Below are positions 10,734 to 26,197 of a DNA stretch of 40,135 nucleotides, piece by piece (positions within the stretch are counted from its first letter, which is position 1; every line of letters begins with the position of its first letter). A program made the position numbers and the translations under genes. This DNA is from Candidatus Omnitrophota bacterium. Lineage in GTDB: Bacteria; Omnitrophota; Gorgyraeia; 2-01-FULL-45-10. Under the pieces are notes generated by a model. That model worked only from the letters and a program-made list of their open reading frames with translations. It was not told the origin of the DNA and made no database searches. Where the stretch lies: NCBI GenBank assembly GCA_028715345.1, contig JAQUSB010000018.1, forward strand, positions 1 to 40,135. Direction: 5' to 3'.

Positions 10734-11494
10734 TGCATAATTTAATTGCAATAGACATAGGCAATACCAATATAACTGTAGGTGTTTTTAAAGCGGGACG
10801 CCTGGCCGCAAAGGCCATGATACCGACCCACGCATATTCGTTATACGAGCCGGGATTTAAAAAATTATTCAAAAGAGCAGGGTTAGATTTAAAGAACGGC
10901 AACGAGGTGATAATATCGAGCGTGGTGCCGATAGCGCTGAGACGTCTGGTAATCCACCTTAATAAGATCGCCCGCTGCCATATTACCATACTGGGCAGGG
11001 ACAAAAAAGTACCGATCAGAAATCTATACCGGATAAAGCGCGAAGTCGGCCAGGACAGGCTCGTCAACGCTTACGCGGCAAAAGTCCTCTACGATGCCCC
11101 GGCTGTTATCATAGACTTCGGAACGGCGATCACTTTCGATCTTATTTCCAAAAGAGGTGATTATCTGGGCGGGCTAATATTGCCGGGTATAGGCATATCG
11201 CTATCAAGCCTCTACGAGAAGACGGCGCTCCTGCCAAAGGTCGAATTAAAAGACGCGCCCCACATAATAGGTAAGTCCACCGCCAACAGTATGCGCGGCG
11301 GTATCCTGTTCGGGTTCGGGGCGATGTGCGACGGGCTCGTTTCGCGTTACAGGAAGGTCCTGGGTAGATCGCTAAAAGTCATTGCGACGGGCGGCAACGC
11401 ATCGCTTATCAAAAAATATTCTTCTTCCATTCAGTTCCTCGACGAGGACATCACCTTAAAAGGCCTCTATCTTATAAGCCGCAGTAACCGGTAA
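10733..11494 (+). CDS. coaX: Type III pantothenate kinase
   Basis: Phosphorylates pantothenate, the first step of coenzyme A synthesis. The 253-residue protein shows the ASKHA-fold signatures of CoaX: the phosphate loop DIGNTN (8-13), GQDRLVNAYAAK, the catalytic region VIDFGTAITFD, GGLILPGIG and a C-terminal TGGNA. The start is GTG, overlapping the birA TAG by one base. The birA-coaX pair is common in bacteria and joins two cofactor functions. It ends just before the groESL promoter. Confidence 0.95.
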   Translation: MHNLIAIDIGNTNITVGVFKAGRLAAKAMIPTHAYSLYEPGFKKLFKRAGLDLKNGNEVIISSVVPIALRRLVIHLNKIARCHITILGRDKKVPIRNLYRIKREVGQDRLVNAYAAKVLYDAPAVIIDFGTAITFDLISKRGDYLGGLILPGIGISLSSLYEKTALLPKVELKDAPHIIGKSTANSMRGGILFGFGAMCDGLVSRYRKVLGRSLKVIATGGNASLIKKYSSSIQFLDEDITLKGLYLISRSNR

Positions 11495-11513
11495 AATTTT
11501 TTCTGAAAAACTC

Positions 11514-11541
11514 TTGACAAAATTTAAGAGATAAGTATAAT
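11514..11541 (+). promoter_or_regulatory. Sigma-70-type promoter of groESL
   Basis: A consensus -35 TTGACA (11514-11519) and -10 TATAAT (11536-11541) are separated by 16 bases. The predicted transcript starts near 11548, right at the CIRCE operator, so HrcA binding would block initiation. Confidence 0.88.
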
Positions 11542-11549
11542 GACTTTTG

Positions 11550-11576
11550 TTAGCACTCGTTAATCTTGAGTGCTAA
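11550..11576 (+). promoter_or_regulatory. CIRCE operator (HrcA binding site)
   Basis: A perfect inverted repeat TTAGCACTC, nine-base spacer, GAGTGCTAA. This is the canonical CIRCE element bound by the heat-shock repressor HrcA. Every arm base matches the consensus. It lies between the promoter and groES, so groESL is expected to be derepressed by heat or unfolded protein. No hrcA gene lies in the window. Confidence 0.97.
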
Positions 11577-25211: not shown

Positions 25212-25964
25212 ATGGCCATCCAGAAGACCGAAGGAATACTTTTACGGCGTCAGGACCTTCGCGAGACGAGCCTCATCCTTACTTTTTACACCAGGGATTT
25301 CGGTAAAATAAAAGGCATAGTGCGGGGCGTCAGGGGGCCGCGTTCGGCCTGCGGGGGAGCGAATATGGAAATATTCGCGCTCGACGAAATCGTATTTTAC
25401 GAGAGACGCAGGAGCGACATCTTTACCATATCACAGTGCGACCTCATCGATTTCTTCGCGCCCGTCCGAGGATCGCTCGACAAGCTGTCATATGCGTCAT
25501 ATTTTGTCGAGCTGATCGACTCTGTGACGGCGCTGGGCGATAAGAACCCCGAGGCGTTCGATCTTCTTCTTAACAGCCTGAAGCTTCTCTCCGGTGATTG
25601 CAGTACCAAAAGGGTCGCGAGGATATTCGAGATAAAACTGCTGCACCTATTGGGGCTGATGCCGTCACTCGATGAGTGTGCCAGTTGCGGCGGCCCTGTG
25701 GATCCCGCGGCGAAATTCAGCTTGCGCCACGGCGGGCTTATCTGCAGGAAGTGTTTTCAGTCTGACAGGGATGCGCGGCCGATCCTGCAGGGGACGGTCA
25801 ATTTTATCGAACACATACGGCCGCTTCCTTTCGAGCGGGTCGCGAGGGTGAAGGTCGCCTCGGAGGTTGGGCGCGAGCTAGAACGGATGCTCCGGAAATT
25901 TCTCGACTTCCACATCGAGCGCCGGCTTAAGTCGGTCCAGTTCCTCAAAGTCATCGAGAAGTGA
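25212..25964 (+). CDS. recO: DNA repair protein RecO
   Basis: RecO loads RecA onto SSB-coated single strands with RecR and takes part in gap repair. The 250-residue protein has the N-terminal OB fold (KTEGILLRRQDLRETSLILTFYTRDFGKIKGIVRG) and a zinc finger of two CxxC pairs (C156/C159 and C178/C181) in the helical C-terminal part. Length is normal. It lies 17 bases after the DgkA-PAP2 gene and is followed by a long palindrome. Confidence 0.95.
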   Translation: MAIQKTEGILLRRQDLRETSLILTFYTRDFGKIKGIVRGVRGPRSACGGANMEIFALDEIVFYERRRSDIFTISQCDLIDFFAPVRGSLDKLSYASYFVELIDSVTALGDKNPEAFDLLLNSLKLLSGDCSTKRVARIFEIKLLHLLGLMPSLDECASCGGPVDPAAKFSLRHGGLICRKCFQSDRDARPILQGTVNFIEHIRPLPFERVARVKVASEVGRELERMLRKFLDFHIERRLKSVQFLKVIEK

Positions 25965-25965
25965 G

Positions 25966-26157
25966 CGAGGAAAATTTTACGATTACCGCTATAAGGAATT
26001 CCCGCAGGGATTCGTGCTAAGCGGGGCGTAAAATTTCGAGCAGATGCGAGAAATTTTCCCGCAGCGAAATTTTGCATGGTCAAAATTTCGCGTCCCGCGA
26101 AGCACAATCCCGAAAGGGAATTCCTTGTCACGATACGGAAAATTTTTTTCGAGCGAG
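25966..26157. repeat. Long imperfect palindrome between recO and glyS
   Basis: Nearly the whole gap folds into one hairpin about 190 nt long. The best arms are 25993-26018 and 26101-26126, both reading AAGGAATTCCC...GGGATT...GTGCT outward to inward. Inside them GCGGGGCG (26021-26028) faces CGTCCCGC (26091-26098) and ATGC (26044-26047) faces GCAT (26074-26077); outside, AAAATTTT (25971-25978) faces AAAATTTT (26140-26147). AAATTT occurs six times. It has no coding frame of note. It may be a miniature inverted-repeat transposable element or a structured RNA. Confidence 0.65.
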
Positions 26158-26168
26158 CGCATTTTCCC

Positions 26169-26197
26169 TTGATTTGTTCAATGGCTCGTGTTAAGAT
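26169..26197 (+). promoter_or_regulatory. Putative promoter of glyS
   Basis: -35 TTGATT (26169-26174) and -10 TAAGAT (26192-26197), 17 bases apart, just beyond the palindrome. Moderate match to the consensus. Confidence 0.45.

Follow-up and report, generated by a model that had tools for sequence, protein, structure and literature searches.

A forked palindromic repeat at gene ends in one family of uncultured Omnitrophota, probably a REP/MITE-like DNA element

A palindromic element lying between recO and glyS on contig JAQUSB010000018.1 of a Candidatus Omnitrophota bacterium (the window below is the whole 40,135-nt stretch that was analyzed) is a multicopy repeat spread through one family of uncultured Omnitrophota. 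It is probably a REP/MITE-like, non-autonomous dispersed DNA element of this phylum, which would be recognized as a folded single strand and would turn over at preferred gene ends. A literature search on Omnitrophota palindromic repeats returned nothing on point.

Structure of the recO-glyS palindrome

DNA folding of positions 25950-26180 of the window gave -52.5 kcal/mol (z -6.1) and RNA folding gave -92.2 (z -6.4), with 0 of 200 shuffles as good in either case. The initial annotation, which had reported a palindrome in this gap with AAATTT repeated six times, was correct on both points, the motif occurring exactly six times (25972, 26031, 26051, 26067, 26083 and 26140). The palindrome 3' of recO is real, although it is forked (Y) rather than the one end-to-end hairpin described there; the 26-base main arms of that description are only 73% complementary, and the stems of the Y, with its two inner hairpins, are perfectly paired, shorter than 26 bases and separated by conserved internal loops. 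Of the annotated extent of 25966-26157, pairing supports 25966-26151 when the outermost pairing bases are included (folding z about -6), but the repeat edges proper, as placed by inverted-repeat search and by the end of the paralogue match elsewhere, are at 25971-26146 (176 nt).

From the outside in, the element (all coordinates on the forward strand) consists of a AAAATTTT terminal stem and a long outer stem, followed past an internal loop by a three-way junction that bears two hairpins. Sequence and inverted-repeat search place the left terminal stem AAAATTTTACG at 25971-25981 (G/TAAAATTTTTCG in other copies) and the right terminal stem CGGAAAATTTT at 26136-26146 (CGAAAAATTTTAC in other copies). 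The long outer stem of the predicted fold is formed by a 5' arm at 25993-26013 (AAGGAATTCCCGCAGGGATTC) and a 3' arm at 26106-26126 (AATCCCGAAAGGGAATTCCTT), which keep their pairing though the copies vary. Within it is the 92-nt Y-shaped head (26014-26105), for which we built a covariance model, R1. The 5' half of the first internal loop is AA in the recO-glyS copy (26019-26020) and GA in most others, and the 3' half is GA (26099-26100). Fold and covariation delimit hairpin A at 26030-26057, with an internal GA/GA loop (26038-26039 with 26048-26049), and hairpin B at 26064-26091, with 11-bp perfect arms and a loop around a conserved CATGG. In copies from several genera (L163, L153, L158, L165, L166) hairpin A contained a long insert whose start (GCGAGCGGGCAYGG) and end (AAAGAGCGAGC) are conserved, and in L259, L263, L264, L265 and L174 (some of the copies in the congener G001) an extra GC-rich hairpin CCCGCTTCGCCGAGCGAAGC was inserted beside the junction.

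The recO reading frame (25212-25964, in a recO-glyS order conserved in relatives) ends in a TGA stop at 25962-25964, 6 nt before the element edge. A promoter-like TTGATT-17-TAAGAT pair can be read ahead of glyS at 26169-26197, outside the element, and similar sequence was found upstream of glyS in relatives. The glyS of the window itself had its nearest match in Candidatus Omnitrophota (82%). The annotated position between the recO stop and a glyS promoter thus stands, but the promoter itself was not listed by a promoter scan with a threshold of 9/12 matches.

Copies, edges and placement at gene ends

A search of the 1.6-Mb genome of origin (G000) with R1 gave 19 matches, four of which were the opposite strand of the same place, leaving at least 15 copies with an intact head. 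At least about 26 copies were matched in the congener G001 and at least about 10 in G002, all these numbers being lower bounds uncorrected for relatedness of the copies, and of 26 family genomes 19 had matches. A 200-base query found more copies in the genome of origin and two congeners, and headless and partial copies were also found; element length was mostly about 165-290 bp. Only four genomes outside the family matched, under stricter filters, in a draw of 193 genomes from the phylum. These outside matches mostly retain the core letters GAGCGGGnCGT...GCGTCCCGCGA and, because of this, the repeat family seems old. No match was obtained in the plasmid, phage and viral collections searched. 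The initial annotation had noted that a single copy conserved in position would argue against a mobile element; the element is instead multicopy, yet many of its positions are common to several genera.

Paralogues at different sites matched edge to edge and had unrelated flanks, as in L283/L284 (87.5% identity over 288 bp), L138/L140 (91% over 213 bp), L174/L264 (92.8% over 250 bp) and L259/L261, which also matched between the edges and not beyond. Counted from the left edge, L143 and L144 shared 99.5% identity across 197 bp; the final stretch before the right edge differed, as would result if a new body had been substituted for an older one and the end of the latter had been left in place. 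Two composite copies (L008, L010) were joined at AAATTT. A terminal inverted repeat was recognizable in 85 of 102 copies, and TA was present at many element edges. Direct repeats of 3-8 nt around the copies were at chance level, in agreement with the earlier remark that no target duplication was obvious. Past the common edge we observed inverted complementarity at positions 2-5 (position 2, 52/58 against 38.8 expected; position 4, 35 against 20.7), and therefore the outermost bases, too, appear to act as a covarying stem. Since the edge variants were inverted copies rather than direct ones (TTTTTATTTTTCG with CGAAAAATAAAAA, for example) and direct repeats were at chance, target duplication of TA, or of the palindromic AAAATTTT itself, was rejected.

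Neighboring genes were called by a simple codon-usage score. Of 57 copies that could be placed, 52 lay between tandem genes, 39 of these on the strand opposite the genes. Where a nearby stop codon could be placed it was on the 3' side of the element in 50 cases and on the 5' side in six, mostly within 10 nt, counts which include orthologous copies; the recO-glyS copy, with its 5' side at the stop, belongs to the minority class. TAA accounted for 36 of the 50 3'-side stops and was often within the element edge, though a TAA-bearing edge closes one reading frame in three by chance. At dnaK, however, it is the protein's natural end that is used, and one copy was placed between dnaK and dnaJ. Ten neighbors were examined and were mostly unrelated housekeeping proteins, so that a functional theme among neighbors was rejected.

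Seven junctions were common to G000 and G001. Whether relatives lack the element at recO-glyS, a point raised in the initial annotation, received a divided answer: several genera were without it there, and other genomes held another subtype in the opposite orientation (G001), a short remnant (G002), a headless piece with another repeat (G003) or other AAATTT-edged repeats (G006, G019). At dnaK the element begins at the stop in G000, as do elements of related type in G005 and G012, and in other genomes the palindromes there were unrelated or the junction was bare. Heads at eight shared gene ends had identities of 0.54-0.79 between genomes, and the best-paralogue identity was 0.86-1.00 for 15 of 16 copies. 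Heads are closer to their paralogues than to their positional counterparts; gene ends are thus preferred sites whose occupants are replaced or homogenized.

Other structured sequences were noted at such places. At 11489-11575 of the window a gene ending TAA AATTTTTTCTG lies just upstream of a CIRCE/groE promoter region; the same junction in G001 (L255) holds a full element, and the window may here contain an empty site or a scar. A second, larger AAATTT-edged structured repeat family (GGCnGAACTTTTGGGTGG...GAAATTTTCGATACCTTATGCCGATGCAGG), which often adjoins the element and is also found at gene ends, was present at L006:1665-1900, L007:1620-1850, L349:1269-1422 and in the recO-glyS gap of L030/L177. 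Quite different palindromes were located directly 3' of dnaK and xer stops in L331, L333, L335, L338, L343, L385, L391 and L393 (an example from other genomes of the family is GGGTCCAGGGTCCAG...CTGGACCCTGGACCC), and the sequences suggest several independent gene-end palindrome families in the host family.

Covariation, the folding strand and rival explanations

The 33 pairs of the head, read in 98 distinct copies, comprised 3043 Watson-Crick, 47 G-U and 25 A-C cells. G-U made up 47 of 3090 pairs (1.5% overall). In hairpins A and B together it was about as frequent as A-C (17 vs 16), which is not the outcome expected of selection on an RNA strand. In a small control of 29 tRNAs from the retrieved loci there were 11 G-U and 3 A-C in 348 cells, with 341 pairs. 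The pair counter, run on 111 rows of which some are opposite-strand readings, found 96.2% of cells paired, two-sided changes at 31 of the 33 pairs and 645 such changes in all; shuffles gave 161 and slid controls 25-83. Having been fitted to R1, the alignment leans towards the model, but even so the slid controls were far lower. The conserved pairing whose absence, according to the initial annotation, would argue against an RNA is thus present. In 75 of 98 copies the first loop had GA on each side. Most copies have GA/GA at both internal loops, on one and the same strand, which was the better folder in 97 of 102 copies as RNA and 96 of 102 as DNA. Because the GA/GA loops are same-stranded and that strand was the more stable in 97 of 102 copies, it is one strand that appears to fold.

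A structured RNA, as the initial annotation had also proposed, would be a small RNA or 3'-UTR element acting post-transcriptionally through its Y fold, as an mRNA stabilizer, processing site or riboregulator. The strong RNA fold and the massive compensatory change are what such an RNA would show, tandem GA/GA loops occur commonly in RNA, and the element occupies transcribed 3' regions, including dnaK-dnaJ. The scarcity of G-U pairs argues against it, as does orientation: with the majority of copies antisense to the abutting gene, the mRNA of that gene contains the strand that folds less stably. Rfam gave no match at E<=1 in the surrounding 701 bases. The wobble deficit suggests, with moderate support, conservation as folded DNA and, taken with the mostly antisense orientation, favors folded DNA over RNA, so that we regard the RNA reading as unlikely. 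An element that is hardly mobile and is kept at gene ends by selection, as a large bidirectional terminator or a REP/BIME-type mRNA-end or supercoiling element, would account for the 3'-end position beside housekeeping genes, for the several gene ends occupied across genera and for the finding that in other genomes these dnaK and xer ends bear palindromes of unrelated sequence. An intrinsic terminator scan found none at the element, however, where the A/T base is palindromic and the T run short, and near-identical heads occur at unrelated sites of one genome. Paralogues are also more alike than the counterparts at shared sites, although this is still compatible with co-option after insertion; on balance such a role as the whole explanation is quite improbable.

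Two mobile alternatives invoke particular enzymes. In a classical MITE moved by a DDE transposase, with duplication of a TA or AAATTT target, one would expect the size, the terminal inverted repeat and the TA seen at many edges, but the edge variants are inverted rather than direct and direct repeats do not exceed chance. No IS630-type DDE transposase (PF13358), the DDE family covered by the search, was detected in eight family genomes, and this type was rejected as the TA-target parent; exact TAAAATTTTTC sites in the genome of origin held no obvious transposon. The MITE of the initial annotation survives in so far as the repeat is short, non-coding, multicopy, dispersed and bounded by inverted ends, but its classical DDE form is hardly credible. 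A site for a tyrosine recombinase, in the form of a folded hairpin like attC or the CTX attP on which Xer-type enzymes act, would fit a forked single-strand fold of the gene-antisense strand at a stop codon, as in the attC bottom strand (PMC2727003). In ten genomes, 11 of 16 XerC/XerD genes had the edge motif at the stop, while the figure for two control genes was 0 of 35. Against this, the motif was present at only 3 of 29 XerC/XerD genes, and a head at one locus, in a second set of 16 further, mostly element-poor genomes, and no integron-style R boxes or cassette arrays were seen. We consider this reading very improbable, and the XerC/XerD association a lead only. In element-rich genomes XerC/XerD genes usually had an AAATTT-edged element at the stop codon (L346-L361).

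Relation to known elements and proposed mechanism

REP sequences of the GTAG/CGTC superfamilies are 20-40 bp units in high copy with a terminal GTAG or CGTC, and go with a REP-type tyrosine transposase that has the repeat on its flanks. The present element resembles the REP/REPIN/BIME group (TnpA-REP, RAYT) in being a dispersed palindrome at gene 3' ends with a stop supplied by the edge, as is described for REP (PMC3733652), in the lack of detected target duplication and in having Y1 transposases in its host genomes. For REP, strand-specific binding of the folded single strand needs conserved stem mismatches (PMC8266576); such mismatches are conserved here, and strand-specific recognition would apply by analogy. 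Unlike REP, the element is about five times longer and fork-shaped, is present in about 15-26 copies (lower bounds) rather than high copy, has G/TAAAATTTTTCG or lineage variants at its edges and no GTAG/CGTC tag, provides TAA, and has stems nearly free of the G-T pairing reported as frequent in REP stems (PMC3733652). Y1/REP-type transposases were found in nine of ten genomes tested, but none of 19 Y1_Tnp loci had an element head within about 1.5 kb, and a Y1/REP enzyme was rejected as linked partner. The transposase with the same ends that the initial annotation had suggested looking for did not come to light in these searches, and no enzyme is tied to the element. The genome of origin also contains a REP-type Y1 transposase gene (L196:1340-2010) with a short inverted repeat of its own on either side (CTTGTACCG/CGGTACAAG), which bears no relation to the element. 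The element is REP-like, yet it fails REP membership on tag, size and linked transposase.

Bacterial MITEs such as ERIC/RU-1, Correia/NEMIS, RUP and YPAL are non-coding, about 100-200 bp, with inverted ends, a long stem loop and AT-rich edges often with TA (PMC2229807), characters which the element shares. It differs from them in lacking target duplication, in gene-end placement in one main orientation, in the three-way-junction head and in that no parent insertion sequence was found. The Caulobacter CIR repeats are likewise intergenic and fold into two arms (PMC2229807), but have a linker and a GANTC motif where the element has two hairpins on a common stem and GA/GA loops. Integron attC sites have R''/R' boxes with a GTT/AAC core and are used by the integron integrase; no such boxes were found at the element edges read. 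As in attC, where the folded bottom strand is active and unpaired bases are conserved (PMC2727003), the element is a large imperfect palindrome at gene ends with conserved unpaired bases, but it stands singly at housekeeping genes.

In the REP/MITE-like reading that we prefer, the strand with the GA/GA mismatches would extrude as a folded single strand from the lagging-strand template, a transcription bubble or a cruciform, and a strand-specific enzyme would recognize it. Copies would then spread to gene ends, or overwrite each other there by recombination, and either selection on the folded DNA or arm-templated repair would preserve the exact complementarity of the arms as DNA. If neighboring mRNA is affected, for instance by a putative 3'-end protection, this would be secondary, and an mRNA-end role could have been added later by selection. 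Against this reading, the gene ends occupied in several genera could mean long-term retention for function. A bolder version, in which the repeat would represent a new gene-end-specific class of mobile DNA with a forked single-stranded fold recognized through GA/GA mismatches, placed at stops with an edge that restores TAA and swapped among established gene-end sites, by cassette-like overwriting, through a single-strand recombinase, is on the unlikely side.

Dispersed bacterial palindromes have been described mainly from cultured groups, and the repeat is a much larger, branched version in a poorly known phylum. The almost wholly Watson-Crick covariation offers a means of telling from sequence alone whether a structure is conserved as DNA or as RNA. 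Together, the stop-codon orientation rule and the turnover at shared sites make REP-like spread and gene-end retention testable across 26 genomes of one family.
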